Assembly: GCA_023266095.1 (NCBI GenBank)
Contig: JAHFRV010000011.1
Coordinates: 19,643-76,180, forward strand
From: Gammaproteobacteria bacterium
Lineage (GTDB): Bacteria > Pseudomonadota > Gammaproteobacteria > DRLM01
DNA: 56,538 nucleotides
Direction: 5' to 3'
Positions 33,766 to 56,480 of this stretch are shown here, in pieces. How positions within the stretch are numbered: the stretch's first letter is position 1; each line of letters opens with the position of its first letter. Under the pieces are notes generated by a model. It ran no database searches and was not told the origin of the DNA. It saw only the letters and a list, made by a program, of their open reading frames with translations. Position numbers and translations under genes: made by a program.

Positions 33766-33839
33766 ACCGCCCGCCGCCATTGAAAAGGGCGGCACATCCG
33801 TGCGCCGCAGGAACCTCTCAATAATTCAGAGGTTCCTTA
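33766..33839. repeat. Dispersed hairpin repeat, copy beside pilR
   Basis: A GCCGCC / GGCGGC hairpin (33773-33778, 33788-33793) around ATTGAAAA is followed by GTGCGCCGCAGGAACCTCT. A second hairpin (33809-33818 with 33828-33837) closes the unit. The same order and near-identical words occur at 48434-48539 upstream of ispH. The right edge reaches the pilR stop codon, so it may also act as the pilR terminator. Confidence 0.7.
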
Positions 33840-35174
33840 ATCCAGCCCCAGTTTTTTCAGCCGGTAGCGCAGCGCGCGGAAGGAAATGCCGAGAAGTTTG
33901 GCGGCCGCGGTTTTATTGTAGCGGGTTTGTTCCAGTGCCTTGACGATGGTATCGCGTGCGATGGAATCCAGAAAGGGTTCGAGTTGCACCGGGCCGCCAG
34001 TGGCGGTAGGTAAAGCGCTGGCGGTGGTGGGCAGGCGCAAATCCGCGGCTTGAATGGTGTTGCCTTCGCAGAGGGTGATGGCGCGCTCGAGGATGTTTTC
34101 CAGTTCCCGCACATTGCCGGGAAACGGATATTGCAACAAGGTGTCTATGGCGGCTTCGCTGAGTAGCGGCGTTTCCTCGCCGTTTTGCGCGGTGATACGT
34201 TGCAGGATGTGTTGAGCGAGCAGGGGAATGTCGTCGCCGCGCTCGCGTAGCGGCGGCACATGCAGTTCGATCACATTGATGCGGTAGAAGAGATCTTGAC
34301 GGAATCCGCCGCTATCCACCAGCGCGGCCAGATCTTTATGGGTGGCGCTCAAGATGCGCACGTCGGTGGGCATTTCCTTTTGCGCGCCGATCGGCCGCAC
34401 CGATTTTTCCTGGATGACCCGCAGTAATTTCACTTGCATATGCAGCGGGAGGTCCGCCACTTCGTCGAGAAACAAGGTGCCGCCGGTGGCCGCTTGAAAG
34501 AGGCCGTCTTTATCCGCCACGGCGCCGGTGAAACTGCCCCTTTTATGGCCGAAGAATTCGCTCTCCACTAATTCGCCGGGTATTGCGCCGCAGTTGACAG
34601 GGATGAACGGTTTGTCGGCGCGCGGACCTTTGTCGTGGATCAGCCGCGCCACCAGTTCCTTGCCGACTCCCGATTCACCGCTGATGTAGACCGGCGCCTG
34701 GCTGCGCGCCAGCTTGGCGATAGTGGACTGAATCTTTCTCATCGCCGGCGAGTCACCGAGCAGGTTCAGGTTCGAGCTCCGTATTGTCTTGGCTTGAGTC
34801 TGCGAGAGTTTGAGCGCGGTGTTCACCAGGTTGCGCAGCACCTGCAAGTCCACCGGTTTGGAGACGAAGTCGAAGGCGCCGGCTTTGAGCGCGCTGACTG
34901 CCGATTCCATATTGCCGTGGGCGGTGATGACGGCGACCGGGGTGTCGGGATAGTTTTTTTGGATGTGTTCGACCAGTTCGATGCCGTTGCCGTCGGGCAG
35001 GCGCATGTCGGTGAGGCATAAATCAAACGACTGGTCGGCGAGCAGGGCGCGTGCGCTGCTCAGGTCTTCGGCGGCGGCGCTGGCGATATTCATACGGCCG
35101 AGGGTGATCTCGATCAGTTCGCGGATATCCGGTTCGTCGTCGACCACGAGGGCGATGGGTTGCTGTGTACTCAC
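33837..35174 (-). CDS. pilR: Type IV pilus response regulator PilR
   Basis: 445 residues: receiver domain (VVDDEPDIRELIEI, LTDMRLPDGNGIEL with the phospho-Asp), AAA+ sigma-54 interaction domain (GESGVGKELVAR, GSFTGA loop, GGTLFLDEVADLPL) and a Fis-type HTH (TAAAKLLGISFRALRYRLKK). It activates RpoN-dependent transcription, most likely of pilA. Overlaps pilS by 4 bp. Confidence 0.96.
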   Translation of the reverse strand: MSTQQPIALVVDDEPDIRELIEITLGRMNIASAAAEDLSSARALLADQSFDLCLTDMRLPDGNGIELVEHIQKNYPDTPVAVITAHGNMESAVSALKAGAFDFVSKPVDLQVLRNLVNTALKLSQTQAKTIRSSNLNLLGDSPAMRKIQSTIAKLARSQAPVYISGESGVGKELVARLIHDKGPRADKPFIPVNCGAIPGELVESEFFGHKRGSFTGAVADKDGLFQAATGGTLFLDEVADLPLHMQVKLLRVIQEKSVRPIGAQKEMPTDVRILSATHKDLAALVDSGGFRQDLFYRINVIELHVPPLRERGDDIPLLAQHILQRITAQNGEETPLLSEAAIDTLLQYPFPGNVRELENILERAITLCEGNTIQAADLRLPTTASALPTATGGPVQLEPFLDSIARDTIVKALEQTRYNKTAAAKLLGISFRALRYRLKKLGLD

Positions 35175-44838: not shown

Positions 44839-47673
44839 ATGACTGATTACAAACACACCTTGAACCTGCCGCATACCGATTTCCCGATGAAGGCGAATCT
44901 GGCGCAGCGCGAGCCGAAGATGCTCAAAGAATGGCAGGCGCTGGGTTTGTACCAAAAACTGCGTGCGGCCCGCGCCGGCGCGCCGAAGTTCGTGCTGCAC
45001 GACGGCCCGCCCTATGCCAACGGTGATATCCACATCGGTCATGCGGTGAACAAAGTGTTGAAGGACATCATCGTCAAATCCCGTTCGATGGCCGGCTTCG
45101 ATGCGCCTTACGTGCCCGGCTGGGACTGCCACGGTCTGCCCATCGAGCTGCAAGTGGAAAAGAAAGCGGGCAAGGTCGGCGTGAAGGTGGACGCCAAAAC
45201 TTTCCGCCAAGCCTGCCGTGACTACGCCGCCGCGCAGGTCGCCAAGCAGCGCGAGGATTTCGTGCGCCTCGGCGTGCTGGGCGATTGGGAGCAGCCGTAT
45301 CTCACCATGGATTTTCGTTTCGAGGCCGACACCATCCGCGCCCTCGGCCGGGTGATCGCCAACGGTCATTTGTACAAAGGCTCCAAGCCGGTGCATTGGT
45401 GCAGCGATTGTGGCTCGGCCCTCGCCGAAGCCGAGGTGGAGTACGAGGACAAAACCTCGCCGGCCATCGACGTGCGCTTCGCGATTTTGGATGAACAGGC
45501 CTTGTTCGCCCGCTGCAAATACCTGCCCGAACACCTCGGCCACGGCCCGTTGAATGTGGTGATCTGGACCACCACGCCGTGGACCCTGCCCGCCAATCAG
45601 GCGGTGGCGGTGCATCCGGAATTGGAATACGTGGTGGTGCAGGCCGGACATGAACGCTTGGTGTTGGCGGAGGCGCTGATGAAACAGGCGCTGGGCCGCT
45701 ACGGTGTTGAGGAATATCGGGTGATCGCCACCTGTCTCGGCGCCGACCTGGAAGGTTTGTTATTGCAGCATCCGTTCTACGCCCGCGAGGTGCCGGTGAT
45801 CGTCGGCGAGCACGTTACCACCGAATCCGGTACCGGCGCGGTGCACACGGCGCCGGGCCACGGTCAGGAAGACTATGTGGTGGGTGTGCGTTACGGGCTG
45901 CCCGTCGAAAATCCGGTGGGCGGCGACGGGGTGTTTCTGCCGGGCACCGAATTGTTCGCCGGCGAACATGTGTTCAAGGCCAATGATCACGTGATCGACG
46001 TGTTGAAGACCAAGGGCACGCTGCTGCATCACGCGGCCTGGCGCCACAGTTATCCCCATTGCTGGCGGCACAAGACGCCGATCATCTTCCGCGCCACGCC
46101 GCAGTGGTTCATCGGCATGGAGCAACAGGGTTTGCGTAAACAGGCGCTGGCCGCCATCGGCAAGGTGGAATGGCTGCCCGGTTGGGGGCAGGCGCGCATC
46201 GAGGGCATGGTGCGCAATCGCCCCGATTGGTGTATCTCGCGGCAGCGCACCTGGGGCGTGCCGATCGCCTTGTTCGTGCACAAAGAGACTGGCAAGTTAC
46301 ATCCGCGCAGCGCCGAGCTGATCGAACAGGTCGCGCAGCGGGTGGAGCGGGCCGGTATCGACGCCTGGTTTGATTTGAGCGCGGCCGAGTTACTGGGTGA
46401 CGAGGCGAGTAGCTACGACAAGGTGAGCGACACCCTCGACGTCTGGTTCGACTCCGGCGTCACTCACGCCTGCGTGCTGGAGTCGCGCGCGGAGTTGGGC
46501 GGCGTGCCCGCCGATTTATATTTGGAAGGTTCCGATCAGCATCGCGGCTGGTTTCAGTCGTCGTTGTTGACCGCGGTGGCCATGCGCGGCGCGGCGCCTT
46601 ATCGCAGCGTGCTCACCCACGGTTTCACCGTCGATGCGCAAGGCCGCAAGATGTCCAAGTCGGTGGGCAATGTGGTGGCGCCGCAAAAGGTAGTGAATAA
46701 TCTCGGCGCGGATATTCTGCGGCTGTGGGTGGCGGCGACGGATTATCGCGGCGAGATGACCGTCTCCGACGAAATCCTGAAACGTACCGCCGATGCCTAT
46801 CGGCGTTTGCGCAACACCGCGCGTTTTCTGCTCGCCAATCTCAACGGCTTCGATCCCGCCGCGCATGGCGTGGCGCCGGAGGCGATGCTGGAGCTGGACC
46901 GCTGGGCGGTGGAGCGCGCGCGGCGTTTGCAAGCGCAGGTCATCGCGGCTTATGGCGCTTACGAGTTCCATCAGATCTATCAGCGGGTGCACAACTTCTG
47001 CGTGGTGGAGATGGGCGGCTTTTACCTCGACATCATCAAGGACCGCCAGTACACCACCCAGGCGGACAGTGTCGCGCGCCGTTCGGCGCAGACGGCGCTG
47101 TATCACATCAGCGAAGCGATGGTGCGCTGGCTGGCGCCCATCATGAGTTTCACCGCCGAGGAATTGTGGCGTTATCTTCCCGGCGCGCGCGGCGCATCGG
47201 TGTTTCTCGAAACCTGGTATGACATGCCGGCGGTGTACGCCGATGTCGCGGCGGCCGACGCCAGTCTGAACGAGTGGGACCGGATCATCGCGGTGCGCGA
47301 GATCGTCGGTAAGGAATTGGAGCGCTTGCGGGTGGCGGGCGGGATCGGTTCCGGCTTGGATGCCGAAGTCGATCTCTATTGCGGCCGCGAACTGCTCGAT
47401 CAATTGACCCATCTCGCCGACGAGTTGCGTTTCGTATTGATCACCTCCGAGGCGCGGGTACACGACACCAACGTGGTGCCCCCGCAGGCCGTGCATTTCA
47501 GTTTGCTGTCCGGTGACGAATTCTGGGTGACGGTGGCGCCGTCGGCGCAGGCCAAGTGCGTGCGCTGCTGGCATCACCGCGCCGACGTCGGCCATCACGC
47601 CGACCACCCGGAATTGTGCGGGCGTTGCCTGGAAAACGTCGCCGGCGCCGGCGAACAGCGGCGGTACGCCTGA
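44839..47673 (+). CDS. ileS: Isoleucyl-tRNA synthetase
   Basis: 944 residues. The class I HIGH motif (HIGHAVNK) is near residue 65 and KMSKS near 604. The editing domain has [14 protein letters not shown] and [16 protein letters not shown]. The C-terminal zinc ribbon is CVRCWHHR...CGRC. It charges tRNA-Ile. The stop overlaps the lspA start (TGATG). Confidence 0.98.
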
Positions 47674-48194
47674 TGCGTGTTTGGTTGACGATAGCCGGGG
47701 TGGTCTTGCTGCTCGACCAGGTCACCAAACAACTCGCCGAGGCCATGCTCGCTTTCGGTGAGAGCGTGGCGGTGTTGCCGTTCTTCAATATCACCCTGGC
47801 CTACAATACCGGCGCGGCCTTTAGTTTTCTTGCACAGGCCGGCGGCTGGCAGCGCTGGTTTTTCGCGGCGCTCGCGCTGGCCGTGAGCACGTTCATCCTG
47901 CTGTGGCTGCGCCGTCTCAAGCCGCAGGAGAAATGGAGCGGGGTGGCCCTGGCCTTGATCCTGGGCGGCGCGCTGGGCAATGTTATCGATCGCATCCTGT
48001 TCGGCCATGTCATCGACTTCATTGATGTCTATTACACCGCCGAGCAATGTATGGCCTTGTTCTCGTTCGAGCCGCTGGCGGCCGGGATGCGCTGCCATTG
48101 GCCTGCCTTCAACATCGCCGATTCGGCGATTTCGGTAGGAGCGGTGATGATGGTGATCGACAGCTTACGCGGCGGGAAGCAGGCCGCGGCCTAG
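47673..48194 (+). CDS. lspA: Lipoprotein signal peptidase
   Basis: 173 residues from ATG 47673. Four helices; LDQVTKQL, NTGAAFSFL, and the catalytic aspartates in GNVIDRI and FNIADSAI. It cleaves prolipoproteins in the inner membrane and would process the lipoproteins encoded at 4643-5345 and 7409-7828. Coupled to ileS. Confidence 0.97.
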   Translation: MRVWLTIAGVVLLLDQVTKQLAEAMLAFGESVAVLPFFNITLAYNTGAAFSFLAQAGGWQRWFFAALALAVSTFILLWLRRLKPQEKWSGVALALILGGALGNVIDRILFGHVIDFIDVYYTAEQCMALFSFEPLAAGMRCHWPAFNIADSAISVGAVMMVIDSLRGGKQAAA

Positions 48195-48214
48195 CGTCGA
48201 AAAGTAGTATTAAC

Positions 48215-48348
48215 GAACCTCTGAAAAATCCAGCCATGGCTTTTTCAGAGACGAAAAACGAAAAATGTGATTTTTGTTTTTCGCCATTTCCCAATCACCT
48301 TCATGATTGGGAAATGGCGATGCATCCCTGCACCGCACCGAACCTTTA
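48215..48348. repeat. Structured repeat unit 1 (three hairpins)
   Basis: Begins GAACCTCTGAA. Hairpin A: 48219-48228 with 48241-48250. Hairpin B: 48252-48265 with 48271-48283, loop TGTGA. Hairpin C: 48282-48297 with 48304-48319, a perfect 16-bp stem. Unit 2 repeats the same A-B-C order with different stem sequences; the B hairpins share the core CGAAAAATGTGATTTT. No coding frame. Confidence 0.8.
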
Positions 48349-48539
48349 GGAAGCTCTGAATAATTCCATCCTGGAATTCTCAGAGCACGGAAAGCGAAAA
48401 ATGTGATTTTCGCTTTCCTTCATTTTCAATGGCCTGCCGCCATTGAAAATGGCGGCAAGACCCTTCGCTTCGCTCTTCCCTGTGCCGCAGGAACCTCTGA
48501 ATAAATCTGAGGTTCCTTTAATAAATCAGAGGTTCCTTA
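48349..48539. repeat. Structured repeat unit 2 plus terminal GAACCTCTGA hairpins
   Basis: Hairpin A: 48353-48359 with 48380-48386 plus an inner 7-bp stem. Hairpin B: 48389-48400 with 48407-48418, perfect, loop ATGTGA. Hairpin C: 48421-48433 with 48439-48451, perfect. Then comes GTGCCGCAGGAACCTCTGA and a hairpin 48489-48497 with 48509-48517, with a further AGAGGTTCCTTA at 48527-48538. The last part matches the copy beside pilR. The remaining ~120 bases to ispH should hold its promoter. Confidence 0.8.
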
Positions 48540-48661
48540 CCCACCAAGTCGCCAAGGAGAAAATCGCTTGAACGAATGGAAAATGGCTTTTCGTTCCTCG
48601 GATTTTTAAGCAGGCGCGAAACCCAGTACAATAGCCGTCCATTCTGTCGAGTAAGCCAGTC

Positions 48662-49600
48662 ATGCAGATCCAGCTTGCCAATCCCCGCGGTTTTTGCGCC
48701 GGCGTCGACCGGGCCATCAATATCGTCGAGCGCGCCCTCGAATTGTTCGGCGCACCGGTCTACGTGCGGCACGAGGTGGTGCACAACAAATTCGTAGTGG
48801 AGGGGCTGCGCGCCAAGGGTGTGGTGTTCGTCAATGAATTGGACGAGGTGCCCGACGATCAAATCGTGATCTTCAGCGCCCACGGTGTTTCCAAGGCGGT
48901 GCGCGACGAGGCGGCACGGCGCGGCTTGAAAGTGTTCGACGCCACCTGCCCGTTGGTGACCAAAGTCCATCTCGAAGTGGAGCGCCACCGCCGCGCCGGC
49001 CAGGAGTGCATCCTCATCGGTCATGCCGGTCATCCCGAGGTGGAGGGCACCATGGGCCAGTGGGGAAAAACCGCCGGCGGCGGTGAGATGTATTTGGTGC
49101 AGGACGTCGATGATGCCCGCATGCTGGAAGTCCGCGATCCCGAGAATATCGCCTTCGTCACCCAGACCACTCTCTCGGTGGACGACACCGCCGCGGTGAT
49201 CGAGGTGTTGCGTGCGCGGTTTCCCCGTATCATCGGTCCGCGCAAGGACGACATCTGCTACGCCACCCAAAACCGGCAGGACGCGGTGAAGGCGCTGGCC
49301 GATCAATGCGACGTGATGCTGGTGGTGGGTTCGCCCAGCAGCTCCAATTCCAATCGCCTGCGCGAGCTGGCGACCAAACGCGGAGTGGCGGCCTATCTCA
49401 TCGACGGCGCCGAGGAAATCCAGGCGGCCTGGCTGGAAGGGAAGCAGTCCATCGGCGTCACCGCCGGCGCCTCGGCGCCCGAGGTGCTGGTGCAGGAGGT
49501 GATCGCCAGACTGGAAAGTCTGGGCGCCGCCCCCGCCCGCGAGATGAGCGGCCGCGCCGAGACCATCGTGTTTTCACTGCCGAAAGAGCTGAGCGCCTGA
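48662..49600 (+). CDS. ispH: 4-hydroxy-3-methylbut-2-enyl diphosphate reductase
   Basis: 312 residues. The three cluster cysteines are in GFCAGV (Cys12), ATCPLV (Cys96) and DICYAT (near 199). It produces isopentenyl and dimethylallyl diphosphate in the MEP pathway, feeding IspB and quinone synthesis. Usually cotranscribed with lspA, but here separated from it by 467 bases of structured repeats. Confidence 0.97.
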
Positions 49601-54595: not shown

Positions 54596-54989
54596 AATTT
54601 CAATAAGTTAAGTCGCAGAGCCTTTAAGCCATTTTATTGTGTAGACGCCATGTATACAGTCGGGCGCATGATATTTCAGCCCCTGAGTTTTTTATCCTCG
54701 GGGCTCTATACCAGCATGGACGGCTGTTTGTTTTTTGCCTAATATCAGGCCTCTACTAAGGGTGGGCTTGAGATTTTAGGAAAGTGCCAGATACTACTTA
54801 CAACAACATTCCTCACGCCTCTCCAAGGAAGCGCACCCCCAGGGCATACTTATTTTTACCCATGGCAAGAACTTTAGCCGGCCTTGTAAAAGCCGCTATA
54901 GACGATATAATTCATAGTAACAAAACCCGCCAAGCCTCTACCCTTCGGGGCACGCTCAAACCGGCGGGTTACTTTTTTCTGGGGTAGTG
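54596..54989. other. AT-richer gap after tRNA-Thr, with a terminator-like hairpin
   Basis: 394 bases without a convincing gene; a 67-residue frame at 54784-54987 has no recognisable features. GGGGCTGAAA-like inverted words flank 54680-54705 (CCCCTGAG...CTCGGGG), probably the tRNA terminator. AACCCGCC (54924-54931) pairs with GGCGGGTT (54963-54970) and is followed by ACTTTTTTCT, 20 bases before the Abi gene. Confidence 0.45.
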
Positions 54990-55877
54990 ATGCACTTCAC
55001 TAAACCCCCCAAGACCTTCCAGGAACAGCTTGGCCTTTTAGAATCGCGCGGCATGGTGATTGCCGACCGTGAAAGCGCCACTCATTACCTCAATCATCTT
55101 AACTATTACCGTCTGCGCGGTTATTGGCTGCCATTGGAGGCGAACCCACAAAGCCACCAGTTCAAGCCCGGCACTACCTTTGAAGATGTGCTGAATCTTT
55201 ACATCTTCGACCGGGAGTTACGCCTATTGTTGATTGATGCGATAGAGCGGATTGAAGTTTCACTGCGCACTCAATGGGCATATAACCTTGCCCATCAGCA
55301 TGGCGCACACGCCTACCTTGATTCCCACTTGAGTAAGAACCGCCATTGGCATGAGAGCAACCTTGCGTCTCTAAACAAAGAGCTGGAAAGATCGGATGAG
55401 GTATTCGTTGGCCACTACAACGACACCTACACCCACCCCAATACCCCACCCATTTGGGCAGTGTGCGAAGTGATGTCGCTAGGGCTGCTATCGCGCTGGT
55501 ACAAGAGCCTGAGACCGGCAGACACTCGGGCCGCCATTGCCAAAACCTACCAACTCTCCGACAAGGTGCTGGAAAGTTTCATCGAACACTTGGCTTACAT
55601 CCGCAACGTCTGCGCTCATCACAGCCGTTTGTGGAACCGGCGCATGACCAAGACCATGGAATTGCCGCGCACCAAGCCCCAGGGACTCCATCAAAACTTC
55701 AATCCAGAACAGGATAGAAAACTCTATAACACACTGGTGATGATTGCTTACTTCATGGACTTGATCAGCCCCAATCACCATTGGAAAACGCGCCTCAAAA
55801 CGTTGATCGGCAACCACGCCATCGACACAAAAGCCATGGGCTTCCCAATTGGCTGGCAAGCGCTGCCGGTCTGGTAA
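54990..55877 (+). CDS. Abi family protein (Abi_2, AbiD/AbiF-like)
   Basis: 295 residues from ATG 54990 (GTG directly before it also possible). [20 protein letters not shown] and [17 protein letters not shown] begin the Abi_2 domain; [20 protein letters not shown] and [18 protein letters not shown] are its core. RNVCAH is the Rx4H motif of HEPN-type nucleases, so it probably acts as an RNase in abortive phage infection. It precedes a type III methyltransferase gene by 30 bases; Abi_2 genes often accompany restriction systems. Confidence 0.9.
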
Positions 55878-55907
55878 CAATAAACAGAAAGTAGCTGAAA
55901 CAGACTT

Positions 55908-56480
55908 ATGCCCATACTTGATTGGTTGAACAAAGACGAAGCGGTCAAAACCGCCAGACGAGTTCCTTACCGCCTGCTGCAAGGAGTAAAGAGCCTGTCC
56001 TATGGCGACCCGAACAGCGAGAACATGCTGATACAGGGTGACAACCTGGAGGCGCTCAAGGCGCTGCTGCCGCTCTATGCGGGCAAGGTAAAGTGCATCT
56101 ACATCGACCCGCCTTACAACACCAAATCGGCCTTTGAACACTACGACGACAACCTGGAGCACAGCCAGTGGTTGTGCATGATGTACCCACGGCTGGAGCT
56201 GTTGCGGGAGCTGCTGGCAGAAGATGGCAGCATCTGGGTATCTATTGATGATTCAGAGGGAGCGTACTTACGTGTAATGATGGATGAAATATTTGGCAGA
56301 AATAATTTTATTGCCGCTAATGTCTGGCAAAAACGGTATTCAAGGGAAAATCGAGAAGCTATCGGTGACGTACATGAATACATTTACGTATATGCGCTCC
56401 AGCCTAACCTTTTTAAGAAAGGGTCTACGCGGATTAGTGTGGGTGCCAAAATGGGGTTTCATAGAAGTCCAGCCTTATAA
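55908..56480 (+). pseudogene. Type III restriction-modification methyltransferase (mod), interrupted
   Basis: 190 codons to a stop at 56478-56480. The Mod N-terminus is clear: NMLIQGDNLEALKALLPLYA, catalytic CIYIDPPYNT, DDNLEHSQWLCMMYPRLELL, SIWVSIDDSE, and NVWQKRYSRENREAIGDVHE. Type III Mod proteins usually exceed 500 residues. Similarity stops near residue 176, at base 56436, and the last ~14 codons look foreign. The gene is thus disrupted, or split by an intron, at that point. Without interruption it would methylate adenine within the type III recognition site. Confidence 0.8.

Follow-up and report, generated by a model that had tools for sequence, protein, structure and literature searches.

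The window analyzed here, a stretch of 56,538 nt from a gammaproteobacterial genome (G000), carries between lspA (47673-48194; TIGR00077) and ispH (48662-49600; TIGR00216) two adjoining repeat units that are rich in hairpins and whose stems remain paired while their sequences differ. What kind of element are these units, how did two of them come to lie together, and what keeps their stems complementary? The explanation that best covers all three points, and to which we assign a probability of about four in five, is a family of five-hairpin elements mobilized by IS5-family transposases, in which the lineages that propagate are selected to keep their hairpins.

Anatomy of the element and its nested copies

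Each intact copy consists of five consecutive hairpins (A-E), has a typical length of about 151 nt and contains no gene. In a typical 151-nt copy, hairpin A is GGAAGCTCTGAATAATTCCATCCTGGAATTCTCAGAGC, hairpin B is GGAAAGCGAAAAATGTGATTTTCGCTTTCC, hairpin C is CATTTTCAATGGCCTGCCGCCATTGAAAATG, hairpin D is GCGGCAC-loop-GTGCCGC and hairpin E is GGAACCTCTGAATAAATCAGAGGTTCC. The left end of the element is GGAAGCTCTGAATAA, and the right end is hairpin E itself, i.e. the terminal repeat together with its own reverse complement. The terminal inverted repeats are imperfect, with GGAAGCTCTGA on the left and the reverse complement of GGAACCTCTGA on the right. The predicted fold of an intact copy consists of exactly five consecutive hairpins, with an energy of -83.6 kcal/mol (z = -12.3); the opposite strand has z = -13.8, and the 324-nt stretch at the locus, folded as DNA, has z = -14.5. 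The hairpin structure is far beyond chance.

A covariance model was built from the copies and used for the counts in the genome, class and phylum; its E-values are rough. At the lspA-ispH locus, the left part of the outer unit (u1) occupies 48214-48348 on the forward strand, as placed by a model match of 90.3 bits, by alignment with L035 and other copies and by the repeats. It comprises hairpins A (48219-48250), B (48252-48283), C (48284-48317) and D (about 48316-48336) and the left arm of E, and is closed by a TTTA at 48345-48348. The complete inner unit (u2; 48349-48516, same strand) matches the model with 163.4 bits (nominal E-value 6.9e-49) and has hairpins A at 48353-48386, B at 48389-48418, C at 48421-48451, D at 48452-48488 with a long loop, and E at 48490-48516. 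On the forward strand, 48517-48536 holds, as the sequence itself shows, a second TTTA (48517-48520) and what is left of u1, including the right-hand arm of that unit's hairpin E. The arms of hairpin E in the module are GGAACCTCTGA..TCAGAGGTTCC. The TTAA to the left of u1 (48210-48213) is probably one half of its target duplication, the other being TTAC (48537-48540) with one mismatch.

The preliminary description of this locus reported hairpins A, B and C in both units, a B core common to the two, and C stems that are perfect while diverging in sequence. All of this is present: the core, CGAAAAATGTGATTTT, occurs in both units together with hairpins A and C, and the C stems of u1 and u2 are perfect and differ in sequence. 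The hairpins are thus real, but the repeat unit had been taken to hold three of them, and the module has five. The units had also been called tandem. Instead, u2 lies between the two TTTA copies and within hairpin E of u1, and once u2 and one TTTA are removed, u1 aligns over its full length, end to end, with other copies. The 4-bp TTTA duplication around u2 makes the pair a nested insertion and not a tandem repeat: u2 is inserted into the last hairpin of u1 (48214-48536).

BLAST searches with 48195-48545 against this genome and 36 relatives showed query positions 151-324 to be a dispersed repeat with many copies, and positions 12-151 to be a related repeat whose own best matches lie at other places, which makes u1 and u2 members of two subfamilies. 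Copies 96% identical to u2 are found on contigs C70 and C63 of the same genome, and all three share the usual five-hairpin plan but have a lengthened D loop. Two similar units could also come to lie together through a simple local duplication, in tandem, of one structured unit, and in another genome (G024) genuine tandem arrays of A-D units do occur, with a period of 124 bp. Such an origin is scarcely credible here, however, since u2 has TTTA on both sides and splits hairpin E of u1, and since the two units belong to different subfamilies with different closest relatives. We propose that u1 would have inserted first, 19 bp after lspA, and u2 later, into a TTTA within hairpin E of u1. The arrays of G024 (C1:2569119-2569522, L048/L056, and C1:13931-14519) repeat A-B-C-D with a period near 124 bp and have no hairpin E between units.

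The array had further been held to split the usual lspA-ispH pair. It does lie between the two genes, but in G002, a genome of the same genus, no copy of the element occupies the site after lspA, which has one TTAG, and the lspA-ispH gap is still about 590 bp. The array is therefore not the sole cause of the gap. In G001, a different, independent copy lies 10 bp past the lspA stop codon, in the opposite orientation and with TTAA on both sides. The closing module of the element does recur next to pilR, as had been reported for 33766-33839: a truncated copy with the right part of C, then D and E, lies on the forward strand at 33766-33836 (44.4 bits), directly against the stop codon of a PilR-like gene (33837-35174, reverse strand; Pfam).

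Elsewhere in the window, just past a tRNA-Thr gene, an abiF RNA (RF03085, 41.7 bits) lies directly upstream of an Abi-like ORF (54987-55877; PF07751), which is followed by a DNA methylase ORF (55908-56480; PF01555). The region 54926-56480 looks like a defense island.

Distribution, target sites and a probable mover

Further copies, which the preliminary description had proposed to look for in the genome and its relatives, are plentiful. The covariance model gives 89 matches in this genome. Once 20 of them are set aside as reverse readings of copies already counted, about 69 places remain, and some of these are short or decayed. Across the class, 74 of 369 genomes and 55 of 272 genera are carriers, and in a phylum-wide draw 46 of 398 genomes were positive, mostly from families of another class; the copies there have the same five hairpins, mostly a length of 146-154 nt, and CTAA-type duplications. 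Named carrier records are uncultured Gammaproteobacteria, Chromatiales and Methylococcaceae assemblies. With simple ORF calling, 4 of 120 copies fall within ORFs and the rest are intergenic, often close to gene 3' ends (median distance 28 nt). Carriage by plasmids or phages was considered and rejected, as blastn gave no match in 72,556 plasmid records or 50,697 phage records and an exact pattern search of viral contigs gave none either.

The family also includes variants of other lengths. Longer ones, of 196-218 nt, contain an additional GC-rich block, CGGCCGCTCCTGCGCATCCCTGCGCC, at hairpin B or within it, and this block is common to unrelated assemblies (L137:2710-2927, L163:3592-3808, L188:4946-5163, L219:5497-5692 and L186:6011-6212). 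Three copies in this genome (L009, L003 and L020, on C40, C20 and C68) are shortened to about 81-85 nt, having lost hairpins B and C at differing breakpoints and kept their ends.

An exact 4-bp target duplication of the YTAR type flanks 82 of 144 distinct copies drawn from many assemblies (TTAA 33, CTAA 15, TTAG 10, CTAG 9, and others). When the right flanks were shuffled in 1000 trials, the mean was 19.1 exact duplications and the maximum 30, and the next four flanking bases match in just one of the 144 copies. A 4-bp target of the YTAR type is typical of the IS5 group within the IS5 family.

Several carriers hold IS5-family elements whose ends match those of the repeat. G001 has an intact 1169-bp element that is bounded by the ends GGAGCCTCTGAACAATTC and GATCAGAGGTTCC and flanked on either side by TAAG; its transposase scores 341.7 bits against NF033581 (cut-off 140), with PF01609 and PF05598 also present. 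In G000, a close relative of this IS is split across the ends of contigs C1 and C91. The ends vary together in G265, where the IS and the element both have CGCTGA in place of CTCTGA, and where several of 13 transposase copies show CTAG, CTAA or TTAG duplications. G482, from another class, has an IS whose first 15 bases are those of the element, the two lying side by side around TTAG, and in G129 two IS copies adjoin an element with CTAA or TTAG between. Together with G307 and G476, this gives matching ends in G001, G265, G482 and two further genomes, besides the split copy in G000. At the junctions in G129 (L249, L260) and G482 (L286), only a single YTAR tetranucleotide separates the IS from the element, which would suit a reuse of insertion ends as targets.

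As IS5-family elements in several carriers share both the ends and the target type, mobilization in trans by IS5 transposases is probably the best explanation for the spread of the element. An IS5-family transposase would act in trans on both element ends, and copies would be inserted at YTAR sites, nearly always between genes. A counterpoint to the IS5 link is that the left and right ends are only imperfect repeats of each other. A close relative of the transposase was not found in 21 of 30 carrier genomes in one search and 13 of 18 in another, and the mover there may be divergent or lost. Matching ends were not found at the transposases of C24 and C72 in this genome, and a search of solved structures with the transposase gave no match. 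The transposase on C104 was rejected as a partner: it is of another IS5 type (NF033580), and its gene merely adjoins a shortened copy (L063), directly at the CTAG end.

A RAYT gene had been put forward in the preliminary description as a possible mover, which would make the element a REP/BIME-type repeat moved by a Y1 transposase. The repeat is indeed palindromic, intergenic and multicopy, and Y1 transposases are present in most other carrier genomes checked, yet there is no Y1 (PF01797) match in this genome with its many copies. The clear 4-bp target duplications and the agreement of the element ends with IS5-family elements also speak against a RAYT origin, which we regard as very unlikely.

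Pairing conservation and its possible causes

The covariation check that had been proposed along with a covariance model gave a strong signal. Among 33 copies taken from different genomes, pairing holds in 96.9% of cells, and for 41 of 57 pairs both partners change; such changes amount to 285 cells, compared with 73 +/- 7 after shuffling and 32-54 in slid controls. An alignment unfitted to the model still gives 23 pairs and 51 cells, against 12 +/- 3. Between genomes, stems differ by 0.257 and unpaired sites by 0.277; with the two equal, stem bases change freely provided they match.

Copies resident in one genome behave otherwise. Between genera, changed pairs are complementary in 280 cases and broken in 82 (77% complementary) for copies taken as the best score per genome, a choice that favors pairing, whereas among 30 copies of this genome the corresponding numbers are 19 and 175 (10%). 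Decayed copies such as L096 and L105 have ratios of 0:19 and 0:14. As a check on the bias, majority sequences of assemblies retrieved via hairpin A only and scored on B-E gave 51 complementary and 10 broken pairs. Since old resident copies decay without compensation, these data argue for selection on propagating copies and not for an automatic correction of one arm by the other. The propagating lineages have probably been selected for complementarity, and it is apparently the fold as such that selection acts on. The earlier suggestion of a mobile palindromic element under structural selection is upheld: the copies are many and dispersed, target sites are duplicated, both filled and empty sites occur, and compensatory change is massive.

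Pairing could also be maintained without selection, through template switching or arm-to-arm correction at replication, as a mutational by-product in an ordinary IS5-driven MITE. This would agree with changes that are nearly all Watson-Crick, with few wobble intermediates, and with the blocks of adjacent compensated changes beside unchanged loops in L205, L199 and L203, although those blocks may stem from recombination between subfamilies as well as from template switching. Correction acting on all copies would, however, have prevented the excess of broken pairs in the resident copies, and we consider this account unlikely; correction may be confined to the time of transposition.

Rather doubtful, too, is a mobile structured RNA, in which selection preserves a transcript acting as a stabilizer, RNase III substrate or small RNA. 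The fold is very stable and covaries strongly, the copies are intergenic and often near gene 3' ends, and RNA effects have been reported for Correia and ERIC elements (PMC10969869). Against this, G-U pairs do not outnumber A-C on the modeled strand (87 vs 137, 40 vs 57 and 24 vs 40, in sets that partly overlap and whose copies are related), and insertions show no preferred orientation relative to genes (34 vs 31 for co-directional pairs; 49 vs 48 near 3' ends). A promoter-like site was looked for and none was found, and no Rfam family matched above its gathering score, the only hits being sub-threshold ones of the microRNA type that look like chance hairpin matches. Because G-U is not favored and gene orientation is random, an RNA made from one strand is unsupported; a role at the DNA level, or RNA from both strands, would fit these sequence patterns. 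Of the 'structured RNA family' in the preliminary description, the covarying structure stands, but an RNA role finds no support in strand preference, either of the wobble pairs or of the insertion orientation.

Within the reading that we prefer, of IS5-mobilized elements selected to keep their hairpins, there are two possible reasons for keeping the hairpins: the folded DNA may be required for movement or persistence, or a transcript of either strand may have to fold if the insertion is to be harmless to neighboring genes. The data favor neither. Only tentatively do we suggest that this phylum-wide element depends on its own folded DNA for propagation, in which case the hairpins would be no by-product but would be needed in cis by an IS5-family DDE transposase or for the element to survive as ssDNA. 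If true, this would be surprising, since a DDE enzyme acting on double-stranded DNA would not be expected to make spread dependent on structure.

Comparison with known mobile repeats

With a length of 151-168 nt (below 500 bp), no transposase gene and about 69 places in the genome, the element has the size and copy number of a MITE, and its terminal repeats, target duplication and parental IS ends place it among MITEs on each of the features examined in the sequences. In the part of the literature covered, including papers on IS5-linked, structured and class-wide MITEs, we found none that names the family or gives its end sequence, and an earlier listing in ISfinder is possible.

The prokaryotic MITEs Correia/NEMIS, ERIC and RUP are likewise small and gene-less, with terminal repeats, target duplications, many intergenic copies, a stable predicted fold and presumed mobilization in trans (PMC10969869, PMC2229807). 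In published accounts they form long stem-loops through pairing of their 5' and 3' ends, and their names come from one or a few genera, whereas the element strings together five separate hairpins, the right end being palindromic, and occurs in dozens of genera of two classes with strong compensatory change. Judged by separate arms, the CIR repeats of Caulobacter and Brucella would be the nearest relatives in kind: compared by description only, they too are intergenic, conserved between genera and built of separate hairpin arms, but they are about 110 bp long with two arms, belong to alphaproteobacteria and have a conserved GANTC motif and no described IS partner (PMC2229807). QMITE2 of Coxiella burnetii resembles the element as a gammaproteobacterial MITE of 150-190 bp that is intergenic and near 3' ends, and differs in its duplications of 7-11 nt and variable sequence, its GTAG REP core and its IS1111 target (PMC5896051). 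The MITEs of Thiomargarita also differ from the element (PMC4853749).

IS5-family elements (NCBIfam NF033581) share with the element, within one and the same genome, the ends GGAA..CTCTGA and 4-bp YTAR-type targets. They carry a transposase gene and lack the five hairpins, so that just the ends are common to both. The BOX elements of Streptococcus pneumoniae are modular structured repeats whose inner modules can multiply. In that respect, going by their description, they are like the A-D arrays of G024, though they belong to another phylum and have another sequence.

The interiors of MITEs are usually thought free to drift, as recognition needs the ends alone. In the present family, compensatory change preserves a single architecture throughout the interior across dozens of genera, and the loss of that architecture in dead copies of the same genome provides an internal control. 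The old question of why small bacterial repeats fold so strongly thereby becomes directly testable, and the covariance model could be used to annotate many intergenic repeats that are at present unexplained.
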